From contig NZ_CP036402.1 of assembly GCF_004322855.1 (NCBI RefSeq), positions 3,782,001 to 3,846,000 of the forward strand: DNA of 64,000 nucleotides, written 5' to 3'. The notes beneath the pieces are model-generated. The model had not been told where the DNA came from. It worked only from the letters and a program-made list of their open reading frames with translations, and did no database searches. This document shows, piece by piece, positions 12,438-54,001 of the stretch. The DNA comes from Egibacter rhizosphaerae (GTDB lineage Bacteria > Actinomycetota > Nitriliruptoria > Euzebyales > Egibacteraceae). Both the position numbers and the translations under genes were made by a program. Each line of letters opens with the position of its first letter. The first letter of the stretch is position 1.

Positions 12438-13706
12438 ATGGCCAGACGATTCGCGATGCTCATCGCCCTACTCGCCGCACTCGCCCTGCTCGTCGCGGCT
12501 TGCGAGGACGTCGACCCCGAGGACGACCCGGCGCTCGACGAGCCTGAGGAGGAAGAGGAGCCCGAGGAGGACGAGGAGCCCGAGGAGGACGACGAGCCCG
12601 ACGAGCCCGACGAGCCCGAGGAGGACGAGGAGCCCGACGAAGAGGAGCCCGACGAGGAGGACGTCGAGACCGGCGCCGACGTCGGCGAGGACGTCGATCC
12701 CGAGGGTGACCTCTGCGTCGACGAGGCGGCCGAGGTCGAGGCTCCGGACGACTTCACGGTCGGCCTCGTGACCGACATCGGCAACGTCGATGACGGCACC
12801 TTCAACCAGTACGCCTACGAGGGCGTGCTCGAGGCGGCCGAGTGCTTCGGCATCGACGACGAGAACATCGCGGTGATCGAGACCCAGAGCGAGGCCGACT
12901 ACGAGCGCAACATGGAGTCGATCCTCGACGCCGATCCCGACGTCGTGATCCCCGTGGGCTTCCTCCTGCAGGACGCCACCGAGAACTTCGCGCAGGAGAA
13001 CGAGGACGTCATCTACGTCGGCGTCGACCAGTTCTCCGACGGCGAGATCGACAACTTCGTCGGACTGCAGTTCCGCGAGGACCAGGGCGGCTTCCTGGCC
13101 GGCGCCATGGCGGCGCTGCTCACCGAGTCGGAGATCGTCGCCGCGGTCGGTGGGCCCGAGGACGTGCCTGCGATCCCGCGCTTCCTGAACGGCTACCAGA
13201 TGGGCGTGGACCACGTGGATCCGGACGTGACCGTCCAGGAGATCTACATCCCGTCGTTCGACGACCCCGCGGAGGGTCGTGCCGCGGCCGAGCAGTTCAT
13301 CGGCGAGGGTGCCGACGTCGTGTTCGGTGCCGCGGGTGTCACCGGCTCCGGCGCCATCCAGGCCGCCGCCGAGCAGGACGCCTGGGTCCTCGGCGTCGAC
13401 CAGGACGAGTACTACACCACCTTCGAGGAAGGCGGGGTCGAGGGCTCCGAGCGCCTGGCCAGCAGCGCGGTCAAGCGAATCGACGTCGGCGTCTTCGAGA
13501 ACATCCAGCTGATCATCGAGGACCAGTTCGAGCCGGGGAACTTCATCCTCGACGCGGAGAACGAGGGCATCACGCTCGCGCCGTACAACGAGGCCGACAT
13601 CCCCGAGGATGTCGACTCCGAGATCACCGAGATCGAGGAGGGCCTCGCCGACGGATCGATCGAGACCGGCGTCGACCCCGAGACCGGGGAGCTGCTCGAC
13701 GAGTAG
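12438..13706 (+). CDS. BMP-family nucleoside-binding lipoprotein (ABC importer)
   Basis: A 422-residue substrate-binding lipoprotein. The signal peptide ends in the lipobox LVAAC with the lipidated Cys at residue 22. Residues 23 to about 90 are an extreme Glu/Asp/Pro spacer with almost no other residues. The BMP domain (about 105-395) starts with FTVGLVTDIGNVDDGTFNQ and includes DADPDVVIPVGF and FGAAGVTGSGAIQAA. BMP proteins such as PnrA and BmpA bind purine nucleosides and hand them to a permease. The matching ATPase and two permeases follow directly. AGGAGGGG precedes the ATG. The acidic spacer is far longer than usual and may keep the binding domain away from the membrane or suit high salt. 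Confidence 0.93.
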   Translation: MARRFAMLIALLAALALLVAACEDVDPEDDPALDEPEEEEEPEEDEEPEEDDEPDEPDEPEEDEEPDEEEPDEEDVETGADVGEDVDPEGDLCVDEAAEVEAPDDFTVGLVTDIGNVDDGTFNQYAYEGVLEAAECFGIDDENIAVIETQSEADYERNMESILDADPDVVIPVGFLLQDATENFAQENEDVIYVGVDQFSDGEIDNFVGLQFREDQGGFLAGAMAALLTESEIVAAVGGPEDVPAIPRFLNGYQMGVDHVDPDVTVQEIYIPSFDDPAEGRAAAEQFIGEGADVVFGAAGVTGSGAIQAAAEQDAWVLGVDQDEYYTTFEEGGVEGSERLASSAVKRIDVGVFENIQLIIEDQFEPGNFILDAENEGITLAPYNEADIPEDVDSEITEIEEGLADGSIETGVDPETGELLDE

Positions 13707-23857: not shown

Positions 23858-24650
23858 CCGCACCCCCTTCGACCGGTGGCGGCTCGGCCTCGCGTCCCTC
23901 GTCGATCCGGTGGGCCATCGCGACGATGTCGGCATCGGCATGGCTGCGCTCGACCGGTCGGCCCGCCCGCATCTCCACGATCCGGTGCGCGATGCCGACG
24001 AAGCCCTCGGGCTCGTGGCTGATGTAGGCGATCGCGACGCGTTCATGGGTGATCAGGTGTTCCAGCGACTCTCGGAGGATGCGTCGTGCATCGGTGTCGA
24101 CCCCCGTCGTGGGCTCGTCGAGGACGAGGAGCTCGGGGTCGGTGACGAGCGCGCGAGCGATGAGCACTCGCTGCTGCTGCCCACCGGAGAGCCGGTTCAC
24201 CGCTTGCTTCCGAAGGGGAGCGATGCCCATCACGTCGATCGCGTGCTCGACACGCTCGCGCTGTGCGCGGTTCATGCGGCGTAGCAGTCCGAGACGCGCC
24301 ACGAGGCCGCTGCGGACGACCTCCTCCACACTGATCGGTAGTGCGGCGTCGGCCATCGCCCGCTGGGGCACATACCCGACGCGCCACCACTCCTCGACCT
24401 GGTCGACCGGGGTCCCGAACAGTCGAACGGTGCCGTGGGTGGGTCGCATCAGCCCGAGCCCGAGCTTGACGAGCGTCGACTTGCCCGAACCGTTGGGGCC
24501 GACGATGGCGACGAACTCGCCGGCGTGGATCCTCAGGTTCACGTCGCGGAGCACCGGGATGCGCTGATAGCCGAACGTGACCTGCTCGAACGCGAGTGCG
24601 GCCGGGGCGTACGCCCCAGCCGCGTCGGCCGTGGTGTCGGGTGGGATCAC
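23844..24650 (-). CDS. znuC: Zinc ABC transporter ATP-binding protein
   Basis: A 268-residue ABC ATPase: Walker A GPNGSGKSTLVKL (about residue 50), Q-loop region YVPQRAMAD, signature RLSGGQQQRVLIARAL, Walker B ELLVLDEPTTGVD and switch His in AYISHEPEG. The GTG at 24650 overlaps the znuA stop by four bases (GTGA). A GTG nine bases earlier is possible. The C-terminal 40 residues are Glu/Asp-rich and have no known role. Confidence 0.95.
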   Translation of the reverse strand: MIPPDTTADAAGAYAPAALAFEQVTFGYQRIPVLRDVNLRIHAGEFVAIVGPNGSGKSTLVKLGLGLMRPTHGTVRLFGTPVDQVEEWWRVGYVPQRAMADAALPISVEEVVRSGLVARLGLLRRMNRAQRERVEHAIDVMGIAPLRKQAVNRLSGGQQQRVLIARALVTDPELLVLDEPTTGVDTDARRILRESLEHLITHERVAIAYISHEPEGFVGIAHRIVEMRAGRPVERSHADADIVAMAHRIDEGREAEPPPVEGGADEPR

Positions 24651-25759
24651 CGGGTGCACTCCAGTCCTTCGGAGAACGTCTCCACCTGCTCCATCAGCAC
24701 GTCGAGGTAGTCGCGATCCTCCCAGCCCTCCTGGGGGATCTCCATGGGATCGACCTCGAAGAGTTCGACGTCGGCTTCCGCTGCGAGTGCCTCGGCGTTC
24801 TCTCGGCCCTCGACGGGCTCCGCGAAGACGCCCGGAATGCCCTCGTCCTCGATCAGGTCCGCGAGCTCGGCGATGCGCTGGGGACTCGCCTCGCCGTGGC
24901 CCCCGGCACCCGCGATGCCCTCCTGCTCGATCCCGCGGGGTTCGAACAGGTAGGCCCAGGCCTCGTGCCCGACGAGAGCGGTCTCCTGCGTGCAGCCCTC
25001 GAGGAGTTCGTCGATCTCCTCCTCCGCGATGGCCAACTCGCCGGCGACCTCCTCCCCGTTGGCGAGGTACGTGTCCGCCCGGTCGCTGTCGGCCTCGGCG
25101 AAGCCCTCGGCGATGGCTTCCGCGACCTCGGCCATGAGGCGCGGCGCCAGCCACACGTGCGGATCCTTGTCGCCGTGGCCGTCACCGTGCCCGTCGTCGT
25201 GCCCGTCGTCGTGCCCGTCGTCGTCGTGTTCGTGGCCGTCGTCGTGCCCATGGTCGAAGTCGATCAGCTGCTCGTCCCCGACGATCTGCTCGACGTTCAC
25301 CACGATGCCGCTGGCCTCATGTGCGGCGTCCTCGACCTGGGGCTGGAAGTCGACGTCGCCCATGTACATGAAGATGTCGGCATCTTCGATCGCCTCACGG
25401 TCGCCCGCGCTGAGCTCGAGGTCGTGGGGATCCTGTCCTGCCCCGCCCAGCAGCTGGACGTCGGCACCGGGGGCGACGTCCTCGGCGAGCGAATCGAGCG
25501 CGAAGATCGACGTCACGATGTCCACGCGCCCACCGACCTCGTCATGGTCGACCTCGTCGTGGCCGGCATCGTCCTCGGCCTCACCCTCGTCCTCGTCCCC
25601 CGCTTCTTCCCCGTCTTCGTCGTCCTCGTCCTGGTCCTCGACCTCGTCAGCCTGCCCCTCGTCGGACTCGTCGTCGGCGACGTCCTCGGTGTCGTCGGCG
25701 CACGCGGCGACGAGCAGGGCGAGGGTCGCGAGAAGGGCGAGTAGGCGGTAGCGCGTCAC
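24647..25759 (-). CDS. znuA: Zinc-binding lipoprotein of the ABC importer
   Basis: A 370-residue cluster A-I binding protein. The signal peptide ends in LLVAAC (lipid Cys at residue 20), followed by an acidic spacer of about 55 residues. VDIVTSIFALDSLAEDVAPG opens the binding domain; the metal-site His are in GQDPHDLELS (about 108), KDPHVWLAPRL (about 205) and the VGHEAWAYL region. Between the first two is a loop with alternating His, Asp and Gly (about 170-200), as in zinc-specific ZnuA proteins. AAGGAG precedes the GTG at 25759; the long ORF upstream is not coding. It heads the operon znuA-znuC-znuB-zur. Confidence 0.95.
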   Translation of the reverse strand: MTRYRLLALLATLALLVAACADDTEDVADDESDEGQADEVEDQDEDDEDGEEAGDEDEGEAEDDAGHDEVDHDEVGGRVDIVTSIFALDSLAEDVAPGADVQLLGGAGQDPHDLELSAGDREAIEDADIFMYMGDVDFQPQVEDAAHEASGIVVNVEQIVGDEQLIDFDHGHDDGHEHDDDGHDDGHDDGHGDGHGDKDPHVWLAPRLMAEVAEAIAEGFAEADSDRADTYLANGEEVAGELAIAEEEIDELLEGCTQETALVGHEAWAYLFEPRGIEQEGIAGAGGHGEASPQRIAELADLIEDEGIPGVFAEPVEGRENAEALAAEADVELFEVDPMEIPQEGWEDRDYLDVLMEQVETFSEGLECTR

Positions 25760-25813
25760 GGAGACTCCTTGTGCCCGGATGGTGGTCGTCTGGCTGCCGG
25801 TCGGCTTCCGCGC

Positions 25814-25842
25814 ATGACAACCCAAACGGGAATCGTTGTCAA
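25814..25842 (-). promoter_or_regulatory. znu promoter overlapped by a Zur-type palindrome
   Basis: On the minus strand TTGACA (-35) is followed after exactly 17 bases by TGTCAT (-10). A perfect 7-bp inverted repeat, TGACAAC with GTTGTCA (25815-25841), spans this promoter, with an AACG-ATTCC-CGTT core inside it. Position and symmetry fit a Zur operator that occludes the promoter. Confidence 0.75.
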
Positions 25843-25873
25843 GTGTAGGGCGGCGGGAGTCTCCACGCACGGG

Positions 25874-47765: not shown

Positions 47766-47846
47766 CCGCGCGGGTCCGCTGTTCACCTGTGTCGGCGCGA
47801 GAATCCAGGGGGAGTAAGCACCCCGTTCCCGCGTTTCGACGGTACC

Positions 47847-48614
47847 GTGGCCGACGTGCGCAAGGTGGCGGTGCTCGGTGTGCTCCTGGGCGCGTTGGTG
47901 GTGCTCTCGGCGTGCGGGACCGCTGCGGTGGACGACTCGCGGGAGGCTGGCAGCGGCCTCGAGCTCACCGGCGACGTCGACGGGGCCCGTGTGACGGTGA
48001 ACGACGGCGCGCCCGAGCTCGTGGTCGGCGACTGCAGTCCCCGATTCGGTCCCGGCACCGACGTGTGCGCGATCAGTCGGGCCGTGGGCGGCGAGGTGTT
48101 CGTGCTCTCGATCGAGAACCCCGAGGTCCTCGAGGTCGGGGACACGCTGGACGTCGCGGCTTCGGACTGCCGTGGGCCGACGTGTGACGACGTGACCGAG
48201 CACGCGGTCATCGACGTCCAACTCGGCGCCAACGACCGTGTCCGCGCGCAGGGCGGAACCCTGCGCGTCGACGTCGTCGAGGAGTTCCGCCGCTACGCGG
48301 GCAGGCTCCGACTCGAGCTGCCCGACGGCAGGCTGTCGGGTTCGTTCGACCTCGTCCCGCTCCCCGACGATCGCGGCAGGCCCCCGGACCCGGATCAAGC
48401 CGACCCGGATCAAGCCGACCCGGATCAAGCCGACCCGGATCAAGCCGACCCGGATCAAGCCGACCCGGATCAAGCCGACCCGTCGGATCCGGCCGACCCG
48501 CGCGAGCAGGACGAACCGCCGGAGGCCCCCGACGGCGAGGGGCAGGGTGATGACAGCCCGCCCGAGGCGCCCAGCGAGCCGGGCGAGCCGGTGCCCGAAC
48601 CCGACGACGGGTAG
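47847..48614 (+). CDS. Lipoprotein with DPDQA repeat and acidic tail
   Basis: A 255-residue lipoprotein: signal peptide VAVLGVLLGALVVLSACG with the lipid Cys at about residue 22. A compact domain follows (about 40-170) with four Cys (VGDCSPRFG; DVCAISR; ASDCRGPTCDD) that could form two disulfides. After FDLVPLPDDRGRP come six copies of DPDQA and an acidic Pro/Glu tail. I recognise no family for the domain. Start codons GTG at 47847 and 47856 are both possible. It is divergent from DUF3151. Confidence 0.7.
   Translation: MADVRKVAVLGVLLGALVVLSACGTAAVDDSREAGSGLELTGDVDGARVTVNDGAPELVVGDCSPRFGPGTDVCAISRAVGGEVFVLSIENPEVLEVGDTLDVAASDCRGPTCDDVTEHAVIDVQLGANDRVRAQGGTLRVDVVEEFRRYAGRLRLELPDGRLSGSFDLVPLPDDRGRPPDPDQADPDQADPDQADPDQADPDQADPDQADPSDPADPREQDEPPEAPDGEGQGDDSPPEAPSEPGEPVPEPDDG
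48387..48476. repeat. 15-bp tandem repeat, six identical copies
   Basis: GACCCGGATCAAGCC is repeated six times without change, encoding DPDQA six times. Identity of all copies at the DNA level suggests recent expansion. Confidence 0.95.
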
Positions 48615-50719: not shown

Positions 50720-51009
50720 CCCTCACCGCAGGGGAGACGGCTCGCGGGGCGTTCCCGGCCGTGCGCGCCGGCCGATCCCGCGACCGCCTCGCGGCCGACG
50801 AGCCGTCACGCGACGCTGGGGGCATGGATGCGCTGTCCCGGCTCGAACTCACGCAGCGCGGTCCCCGCGATCGCCGCACCGCCCGCGGTCGCCGCGGCCC
50901 TTGCGCCGCCCCCGGTCACCGCGGCCGCTGCGCCGCCCGCGATCGTCGCGGTCCCTGCGAGGTCGGCTGCGCGCTCGACGCTGACCACCGTTCCCGGAGG
51001 CCGCGGTGA
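50716..51009 (+). CDS. Possible small Arg-rich protein coupled to pepA
   Basis: A 97-residue frame whose ATG overlaps the pepA stop (ATGA) and whose TGA overlaps the next gene's GTG (GTGA). Such coupling at both ends is the best reason to believe it. The first 50 residues (MTLTAGETARGAFPAVRAGR onward) look ordinary; the second half is Arg/Gly/Cys-rich and comes from an imperfect GC-only repeat (50860-50960), which also opens long frames on other strands. I know no homologue. It may be a real protein with an expanded tail or only chance. Confidence 0.4.
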   Translation: MTLTAGETARGAFPAVRAGRSRDRLAADEPSRDAGGMDALSRLELTQRGPRDRRTARGRRGPCAAPGHRGRCAARDRRGPCEVGCALDADHRSRRPR

Positions 51010-51797
51010 GCGGGCCCCTGGGGGTGGTCGCGCTGCTGCTGGCACAGACCGCCGTGGGTGCGCTGGTGGTCCTGTGGGGCATCGGGGCCTGGGGCGCGAC
51101 CCGGCGAACGTTCATCCATCTGACCGGCATTGCGGCCACGTTGGCCGCCTGGGGCGCCTGGGCGGCGGGACGCGCCGGGGTCGCCGAGGCGGCCTCCGGA
51201 GTCGGTGCGGCTGACGGGTTCGCGGCTGCGGTACCGGGTGCCTTGCTCGCGAGCGCGGGCGTGCTGACCCTCTGGCAGGGCGCGCTCATCACGGGCGAGA
51301 ACGCCGTCAGTCGCCTCCTCGGGTATGTCGCGACGCTCGGAGCGGCCGCTGCGCTCGGGATCACCGCTGCGAGCCGGGGGGACCGCATCCTCCTCGCGGT
51401 CACCGAGGCCGGGCTCGGTGCGCTGTTCCTCGGTTCGACCCTGCTCGGCCTGCTGCTGGGGCACTGGTACCTGTTCGAACGCCGGCTCACCAACCGCTAC
51501 ATGATCCGCAGCGCCCGTTGGTACGCCGCCGGGGTCGTGGCGGGAGCTGCGGCGGCGGGTCTGAGCTCGCTCAACCCGGCGCCACCGCTCGCCGGGTTCA
51601 GCCCGTTCCTGGCCGTCCCCGGATTCTCGCTCTGGCTGGCCGGCGGTCTCGTGCTCGTCTGCGCGCTCATCGCCGCGTTCGTGCTGAAGTTGGCCCACGA
51701 GGGCGGCCGCTCGATCCAGGCCGCGACCGGGTTGATGTACCTGGCGGTGATCATGGCGTTCAGCGCCGAGCTGTCGACGAAGTTCCGGTTCTTCTGA
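51006..51797 (+). CDS. Seven-helix membrane protein of unknown function
   Basis: A 263-residue protein with about seven hydrophobic segments spread over its whole length (VVALLLAQTAVGALVVLWGI; RTFIHLTGIAATLAAWGAWA; LFLGSTLLGLLLGHWYLFER; and others to YLAVIMAFSAEL). GHWYLFERRLTNRYMIRSAR and SIQAATGLMYLAVIM look conserved, with a His that could bind a metal or haem, but I cannot place the family. The GTG overlaps the small ORF before it. It is 239 bases upstream of the acidic repeat protein. Confidence 0.7.
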   Translation: MSGPLGVVALLLAQTAVGALVVLWGIGAWGATRRTFIHLTGIAATLAAWGAWAAGRAGVAEAASGVGAADGFAAAVPGALLASAGVLTLWQGALITGENAVSRLLGYVATLGAAAALGITAASRGDRILLAVTEAGLGALFLGSTLLGLLLGHWYLFERRLTNRYMIRSARWYAAGVVAGAAAAGLSSLNPAPPLAGFSPFLAVPGFSLWLAGGLVLVCALIAAFVLKLAHEGGRSIQAATGLMYLAVIMAFSAELSTKFRFF

Positions 51798-52036: not shown

Positions 52037-54001
52037 ATGGGAATCCGGCTGAACGCTCCGCTCCTGACCGCTGCTCTGTCGCTGCTGCTCGTGACTGCCA
52101 TGGTTGTGGCGGTCAGCGGGTTCGGCGGCCTGTTGAGCTTCCCGACCGCCCGGGTCGAGCAGATGGTGGGCTCCCCACAGCTCGACGCCGCGCAGGCGCC
52201 CCTCGGGGACGAGGGACCCGAGCCCACGACCCACGCAGGGTCGAACTCTGAGGACGGCTTCGCCCTGATCCCGCCCGATCCCGACGCGGATGCCGCAGGG
52301 CCCGCGGTGATGGACGAGTCGTCCGGCGACGACACCAGCGCCGGGGACGGAGGCGACTCCCAGGATTCGAGCGGTTCCTCCGATGGGGGTGGCGCGTCCG
52401 GTGAGGCGACCGCCGACGCCGCCTCCGCCGGGGCCAGCGGTGGCTCGGGCGACATCGCCGACGCCTCCCAGGGATCGGGCTCGCAGGGCGGTGGCGCGTC
52501 GGATTCCGGTGCAGGCGACGGCGGCGCCGACGCCGGCACTGACGACGCCGGCACTGACGACGCCAGCGAGGGCGAGAGTGCGCCGGACGGGCCCGGCCCG
52601 GTCGTCGTGGAGCCCCCCGAGGGCCCGCGGCCACCGGCATTCGGGGCCGCCTCGACCGGTGATGATGCCTCGAAGCTCGCCGCGACGCTGCGCGAGGAGC
52701 TCGCCCAGGCGGAACGTGACCGCGAGGACACCGAGGACGGCGGCTCCTCCGATGACGCCGAGGAGGACAGCGGCTCGGACGGCGGCAGTGGTTCGGACGG
52801 CGGCGGTGGTTCGGACGGCGGCGGCGGTTCGGACGGCGGCAGTGGTTCGGACGGCGGCGGTGGTTCGGACGGCGGCGGCGGTTCGGACGGCGGCAGCGAC
52901 TCAGACGGCGGCAGCGACTCGGACGGCGGCAGTGGTTCGGACGGCGGCAGCGACTCGGACTCGGGAGCCTCCGACGAAGGCGGGGACGAGGACAGCGGCC
53001 GGGAGGCCGAGAACGCGGACGACGAGGATGCCTCGACCGCCGCGGCCGCTACCCCACCTCTGCCCGAGGGCGAAGAGCCCCCCGAGTGGTGGGACGAGCT
53101 CGACGAGGACGAGCAGCACGGGGTGACCGAGCTCATCGAGACCGACGACGAGTGGCGCGAGTGGTGGGAAGAGGGCGTCGGGACCCCCGAGCAGCCCGAG
53201 GACGACGACGGCTCGGACGAGGACGGCGACAGCTCGGACGAGGACGGGTCCGAGGAGGACGACGACGGCTCGGACGAGGCCGGTAAGGACGACGAGGACG
53301 ACGAGGACGGCTCGGACGAGGACGGGAAGGACGACGAGGACGACGGCTCGGACGAGGAAGGCTCGGACGAGGACGGCTCCGATGAGGAGGACGGCTCGGA
53401 CGAGGATGGCTCGGACGAGGACGGCGATGGCTCGGACGAGGACGGCTCCGATGACGAGGACGGCTCCGATGAGGAGGACGGCTCGGACGAGGATGGCTCG
53501 GACGAGGACGGCTCCGATGAGGAGGACGGCTCGGACGAGGATGGCTCGGACGAGGACGGCGATGGCTCGGACGAGGATGGCTCGGACGAGGATGGCTCGG
53601 ACGAGGACGGCTCCGATGAGGAGGATGGCTCGGACGAGGAGGGCTCCGATGAGGAGGACGGCTCGGACGAGGATGGCTCGGACGAGGACGGCGACGGCTC
53701 GGACGAGGACGGCTCGGACGAGGACGGCTCCGATGAGGAGGACGGCTCGGACGAGGATGGCTCGGACGAGGACGGCGATGGCGACGGGTCCGAGGACGGG
53801 TACGGCGACGGACCCGAGGACGGCAAGGACGACCAGGACGAGGACGGCGACGAGTCGAGCGACGACGGCGACGGAAACGGCGAGGGCGACAACGCACAGG
53901 ACGACGGGAACAACGGCAACGAGGACGACGCCGCCCGCGAGTCCGAGGACGAGAAGGGCACGGACGAGGACGATGACGACGCGGACGCCGACGGCGAGTA
54001 G
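52037..54001 (+). CDS. Secreted, extremely acidic Ser-Asp-Glu-Gly repeat protein
   Basis: A 654-residue protein. Residues 8-32 form a signal peptide or anchor (APLLTAALSLLLVTAMVVAV). After about 150 mixed Ser/Gly/Asp/Ala residues and a helix (ASKLAATLREELAQAERDRE, about 215-235) come two repeat blocks. Block 1 (about 245-310) alternates SDGG and GGGSDGG units; block 2 (about 390-585) is built from SDEDG and SDEEDG units in a higher-order pattern, SDEEDGSDEDGSDEDGDG. Between them is one ordered-looking segment, EWWDELDEDEQHGVTELIE and WREWWEEG (about 350-385), with four or five Trp. No sorting signal or second helix is seen. Calcium binding or a surface brush is possible. The function is unknown. 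Confidence 0.7.
   Translation: MGIRLNAPLLTAALSLLLVTAMVVAVSGFGGLLSFPTARVEQMVGSPQLDAAQAPLGDEGPEPTTHAGSNSEDGFALIPPDPDADAAGPAVMDESSGDDTSAGDGGDSQDSSGSSDGGGASGEATADAASAGASGGSGDIADASQGSGSQGGGASDSGAGDGGADAGTDDAGTDDASEGESAPDGPGPVVVEPPEGPRPPAFGAASTGDDASKLAATLREELAQAERDREDTEDGGSSDDAEEDSGSDGGSGSDGGGGSDGGGGSDGGSGSDGGGGSDGGGGSDGGSDSDGGSDSDGGSGSDGGSDSDSGASDEGGDEDSGREAENADDEDASTAAAATPPLPEGEEPPEWWDELDEDEQHGVTELIETDDEWREWWEEGVGTPEQPEDDDGSDEDGDSSDEDGSEEDDDGSDEAGKDDEDDEDGSDEDGKDDEDDGSDEEGSDEDGSDEEDGSDEDGSDEDGDGSDEDGSDDEDGSDEEDGSDEDGSDEDGSDEEDGSDEDGSDEDGDGSDEDGSDEDGSDEDGSDEEDGSDEEGSDEEDGSDEDGSDEDGDGSDEDGSDEDGSDEEDGSDEDGSDEDGDGDGSEDGYGDGPEDGKDDQDEDGDESSDDGDGNGEGDNAQDDGNNGNEDDAARESEDEKGTDEDDDDADADGE
52775..53785. 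repeat. Two blocks of short tandem repeats encoding Ser-Asp repeats
   Basis: Block 1 (about 52775-52970) is made of 12-18-base units such as GGCGGCGGTTCGGAC. Block 2 (about 53205-53785) uses GGCTCGGACGAGGA-type units with longer near-identical modules of about 57-70 bases. The reading frame is kept throughout. Confidence 0.85.

Follow-up and report, generated by a model that had tools for sequence, protein, structure and literature searches.

The gene at 52037–54001 on the forward strand of the window, by which we mean the whole 64,000-nucleotide stretch of Egibacter rhizosphaerae DNA analyzed here, encodes a 654-residue polyanionic repeat protein that is probably exported and for which no homologue was found in the collections searched. 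Taken alone, it is an ordinary low-complexity protein; its interest lies in being the extreme of a genome-wide trait, and it may represent the domain-free end of a general acidification of extracytoplasmic proteins. We consider it likely that the exterior of this bacterium is acidified. That the protein is a free-standing polyanion of this exterior, with a mode of action comparable to that of alkaliphile acidic surface polymers, is a reading by analogy to which we give about an even chance, and a role of the acidic exterior in handling protons or cations is our best guess from the same analogy.

The open reading frame, its strand, its coordinates and its length of 654 residues from an ATG start had all been given exactly in the original prediction. 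GC content at the three codon positions (0.79/0.51/0.88) resembles that of the neighboring genes, whereas an overlapping antisense open reading frame of 764 residues shows an unnatural pattern (0.52/0.78/0.84) and was rejected; the frame at 52037–54001 was therefore taken as the coding one. A search of the forward strand revealed no promoter of the sigma-70 type for the gene, and inspection by eye revealed no good ribosome site near the ATG, a GGAGGAG being located about 38 bases upstream. With such weak start signals, initiation and expression are putative. The 5' region was no more structured than its shuffles (z 0.2), and an Rfam search returned zero matches at the gathering score.

As had been predicted, most of the protein consists of Asp (160), Glu (91), Ser (87), and Gly (134), which together make up 72% of the 654 residues. 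Cysteine is absent, leaving no site for lipidation, the net charge is approximately -237 at pH 7, and the pI is about 4.05. This strong acidity is computed, and we infer the location of the protein from its N-terminal helix and the genome-wide pattern described below. The two repeat styles proposed earlier are real. An 18-bp array at 52768–52960 (forward strand; Tandem Repeats Finder; 10.7 copies with 89% matches) codes for SDGG(G/S)(G/D), and a GSDED/GSDEED array occupies 53200–53776 on the same strand (Tandem Repeats Finder and repeat analysis). In the latter array there are exact duplications of up to 83 bp, every one of them in frame, in agreement with the near-identity at the DNA level that had been pointed out. 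All differences among 29 GS[DE][DE][DE] units fall at the third codon position, and the 678 pairwise codon differences comprise 442 synonymous changes and 236 D/E exchanges, a pattern that is partly due to construction because the residues were fixed by the search.

Three helices interrupt this composition. The first is hydrophobic (residues ~7–33; 52055–52135, forward strand), with a hydropathy maximum of 2.41 and an AlphaFold pLDDT of ~64–85, and it is either a signal peptide that is cleaved or a membrane anchor that is retained. Export, as proposed in the original prediction, is likely and is well supported by inference from this hydrophobic N-terminus, which may resemble that of haloarchaeal surface proteins. 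The second is a short charged helix (residues ~208–233, ...SKLAATLREELAQAERDRED...; 52658–52735, forward strand; pLDDT ~75–81), and the third is the Trp-rich helical segment EWWDELDEDEQHGVTELIETDDEWREWWEE (residues ~350–380; 53084–53176, forward strand; pLDDT ~72–81). The AlphaFold model is a single-sequence one that covers residues 1–392, the acidic C-terminal array lying outside the modeled part; apart from the three helices, residues 1–392 were modeled at low confidence, as disorder would be. LPxTG was absent from the last 60 residues, consistent with the earlier statement that there is no wall-sorting motif. No second hydrophobic segment was detected beyond residue 60, and no Pfam family was detected in the protein, including SLH or any other wall-binding domain.

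Searches for relatives suggested that the protein is confined to its lineage. Neither the N-terminus nor the Trp-rich segment had a convincing relative in the 41 or 66 class genomes or in an 85k-species genome scan, which used six short peptide patterns only, and no convincing relative of the protein was found among solved structures. The searches of the class genomes yielded no further genome of the genus. The N-terminal 84 residues gave weak matches in the 66 class genomes (E 0.002–0.05), which were inspected in part. One of these (L091) was rejected because it is the tail end of a polytopic membrane protein with no relation to ours, and another (L098) because a stop lay within the match and the coding frame was not clear; the others inspected were short and unconvincing. 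Weak matches to the Trp segment occurred in two relatives (E 0.03–0.04), one of them within a solute-binding lipoprotein, and the PDB matches were designed helical TIM barrels, that is, a match of helix composition only. This segment had been described as a conserved-looking helix; the helix is borne out by the AlphaFold model, but the conservation is not, as no homologue was found. By sequence comparison with the collections searched, the segment is an orphan rather than a conserved domain, and the whole protein is a lineage-specific orphan. A strict DNA pattern for GSDEDGSDE was present, among 66 genomes, only in this one, where the acidic gene and a single DUF5667 gene carry it, although looser acidic tails do exist in relatives.

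The original prediction overlooked that the acidic style extends to about half of the exported proteins of this genome. With home-made gene calls, protein classes assigned by a simple rule on hydropathy, lipoproteins recognized by a loose lipobox pattern, and small numbers per genome, we sampled approximately 464 kb of the genome (the window and 20 stretches of 20 kb each) and found a 40-residue stretch with at least 50% D/E in 12 of the 25 predicted exported proteins, compared with 0 of the 207 cytoplasmic proteins and 3 of the 69 multi-helix membrane proteins. Among exported proteins of relatives, such stretches were found in 0/25 for a genome of the same family (G015), 2/24 for one of the same order (G029), and 0/17 for one of the same class (G039). 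The excess over relatives persisted under all nine threshold choices; when the hydropathy cut was set at its strictest, a small number of this genome's proteins in which no segment was called passed the acidic test too. Cytoplasmic proteins were not more acidic than those of G029 and G039, which argues against a salt-in proteome, though they were more acidic than those of G015. Runs of eight acidic codons yielded 103 pattern matches in this genome, the highest count in the class. Eleven regions with such runs, part of the 103 matches, were read, and ten open reading frames were left after the frame filter. Of these, nine encode MreC, RodZ, a CWB2 protein that binds the cell wall, a DUF5667 protein, a lytic transglycosylase, a cytochrome c, and three lipoproteins (two identified as solute-binding and one with no Pfam match), and according to what is known of these families the acidic runs lie in the extracytoplasmic part. 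The frame of the tenth (L162, 176 residues) is doubtful. A few searches aimed at this trait among open-licence papers found no published description of a genome-wide acidic exterior.

The pattern was also seen in lipoproteins. In seven of the ten identified in the genome sample, the 40 residues following the lipid Cys were 55–80% D/E with no K/R, and at a 40% cut an acidic region in this position was found in 0/5, 1/11, and 0/3 lipoproteins of the three relatives. In the window, such spacers follow the lipid Cys in the lipoprotein genes at 12438–13706 (spacer at 12504–12623, forward strand, 72% D/E) and 24647–25870 (spacer at 25580–25699, reverse strand, 65% D/E), both without K/R. One lipoprotein was compared with its counterpart in G010: the bodies are equal in length and 75% identical, and the spacers are 60 and 44 residues long and 73% and 68% acidic, respectively, with zero basic residues in either. 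Because spacer length differs and charge is kept, charge rather than sequence seems to be selected, an illustration from one orthologous pair and no test. DUF5667 proteins of G008, G017, and G018 have acidic tails, in agreement with a kept charge, but those in G015 and G029 are not acidic. Across genomes of the family, some DUF5667 proteins (L153 in G008 and L134 in G018) have a strongly acidic tail and others one rich in Pro/Thr/Ser, indicating that tail composition switches between lineages. A protein of more than 500 residues in G017 (L118, contig C41), cut at the locus end, has a folded-looking middle flanked on either side by stretches rich in Asp, Glu, Gly, and Ser.

If the protein is a free-standing polyanion, the N-terminal signal or anchor helix would carry a disordered, strongly negative chain across the membrane, and the chain would remain at the cell surface or be released from there. 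Its dense carboxylates would create a polyanionic layer along membrane and wall, where cations and protons would accumulate and hydroxide would be kept off, as has been proposed for the acidic surface polymers of alkaliphiles, and the short charged helix and the Trp-rich helix may tether the chain to the membrane, the wall, or itself. In alkaliphilic Bacillus, acidic wall polymers (TUA/TUP) and SlpA have been proposed to collect protons and hold hydroxide off (PMC5938343). SlpA (pI 4.36, poor in Arg and Lys), teichuronopeptide, and teichuronic acid are likewise acidic polymers outside the membrane (PMC5938343, PMC12457358). However, SlpA has SLH domains and forms an S-layer, and in teichuronopeptide an acidic polypeptide is joined to polyglucuronic acid, whereas the 654-residue protein is an actinobacterial repeat protein with no SLH or known anchor domain. 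In the cytochrome c of obligate alkaliphiles, the lipid Cys is followed by a segment that is acidic and free of basic residues and has been proposed to be an H+ capacitor; this stretch lies soon after the lipid cysteine in cytochrome c-550 of obligate alkaliphilic Bacillaceae, a layout that the lipoproteins described here share (PMC12457358). Cytochrome c-550 has 10–14 acidic residues and is one protein family, whereas the present lipoproteins carry 22–32 per 40 residues on several unrelated proteins, in addition to the free-standing chain.

In favor of this reading, there are soda-lake MAGs among the same-family genomes. Two of them, G001 and G017, correspond to MAGs of T1Sed and CSSed, which are data sets from soda-lake sediments. 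Nitriliruptoria are abundant in soda-lake sediments (PMC6146748). Against the reading counts G015, of the same family, which is without the acidic exported-protein habit. G039, also without it, is perhaps Nitriliruptor alkaliphilus, and if so it would argue against alkalinity alone. The surface-charge idea is itself unsettled, as B. pseudofirmus OF4 and its mutants did not differ in electrophoretic mobility (PMC5938343). We advance only tentatively the wider view that the acidified exterior is lineage-wide, with acidic, base-free collars beside the membrane on most lipoproteins and on many other exported proteins and the orphan free polyanion together forming a proteinaceous cation or proton reservoir in which charge is selected and sequence and length drift. 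How protons or cations are kept near the membrane at high pH or salt is a long-standing question that has been argued mostly from Bacillus. Should this be what the collars and the free polyanion are for, the idea has been put to use in an actinobacterial lineage throughout its exported proteins, and the matter could be approached by comparing related genomes with and without the trait.

A surface stalk or adhesin, in which the repeats would be a spacer holding the Trp-rich module off the cell for attachment or for a biofilm matrix, is an unlikely alternative. It is favored by the modular build of the protein, in which one folded-looking segment stands between repeats of two styles, and by the adjoining diguanylate cyclase gene, which is convergent with the acidic gene at a distance of 21 bp, a tail-to-tail arrangement noted in the original prediction. 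The cyclase contains HAMP, GAF, and GGDEF domains and two hydrophobic segments, in line with the earlier description of it as a membrane protein. A Ser-Asp rich low-complexity region is common to our protein and the Sdr/MSCRAMM proteins, and the match to SdrC (NCBIfam NF000535), a further point in favor of a stalk, is weak and compositional, its 17.3 bits lying far under the cut-off of 1700, confirming that the resemblance is one of composition only. Unlike the Sdr/MSCRAMM proteins, the 654-residue protein has neither LPxTG nor a C-terminal hydrophobic segment nor a recognized domain. A stalk or adhesin is further disfavored because a sorting motif, a second anchor, and a recognizable adhesion domain are all absent, and because the long acidic array stands at the free C-terminus, past the Trp segment, which would be odd for a stalk.

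The neighborhood also speaks against a stalk, as it is a variable slot. The recurring gene order in relatives is cupin, M17 aminopeptidase, membrane protein (51006–51797, forward strand, in the window; matches in 39 of 41 class genomes), variable slot, O-methyltransferase, and sigma factor, the aminopeptidase usually preceding the membrane protein and the O-methyltransferase usually, and the sigma factor often, following it. The acidic gene was not found in the slot of relatives, and relatives of the cyclase in other genomes have mostly different neighbors; by this comparison, both genes look like lineage-specific insertions between conserved genes. Because the slot contents vary and cyclase relatives are mostly elsewhere, the closeness of the cyclase gene says little for a part in biofilms, and the hint of biofilm biology that had been drawn from the neighbors was not supported.

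Repeat expansion with little function, by which slippage in GC-rich codons would have lengthened an exported frame in one lineage, is in our view a doubtful explanation. The absence of a homologue in the collections searched and the weak initiation signals fit it, as do the exact in-frame duplications, which indicate recent expansion, and the identical GSDEDGSDE codons in the DUF5667 gene tail. However, the codon-position GC is like that of real genes, the orthologous lipoprotein pair keeps its charge despite the change in length, and slippage alone fails to account for acidic stretches being nearly confined to exported proteins.

Rather improbable is a calcium- or mineral-binding Asp-rich protein that would buffer divalent cations or steer carbonate precipitation. 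Polycarboxylates in general bind Ca2+, and the protein has eight DxDxDG-type stretches and long D/E/S runs, but the RTX nonapeptide GGxGxDxUx, with its hydrophobic position, had no match, calcium-binding repeat families were absent in Pfam searches even at E up to 1, and the lipoprotein spacers of this genome owe their acidity to different patterns, most of them D/E/P. DUF5667 proteins (PF18915) of this class combine a membrane segment with low-complexity, sometimes acidic tails, and a DUF5667 relative that lost its domain and kept the tail is highly improbable: the DUF5667 protein of this genome has the same repeat style, with an identical stretch of 35 bp, and acidic tails occur in several same-family genomes, but the PF18915 domain is absent from our protein, with no match at E up to 1, and the acidic habit is found on unrelated proteins too.

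The product of 51006–51797 had been described as a seven-helix protein. Its helical membrane nature was upheld, but the count is approximate; the all-helical, polytopic AlphaFold model (pLDDT 86), whose underlying alignment (A1) contains two rows of wrong-strand translations (15% and 21% identity), shows eight helices of at least 23 residues. The protein belongs to no Pfam or NCBIfam family, and in a Foldseek search its model weakly resembled cytochrome bd subunits and subunit C of alternative complex III (E 0.05 at best). At 47832–48614 on the forward strand, a putative lipoprotein ends in a tandem PDQAD repeat, showing a similar liking for acidic low-complexity tails.
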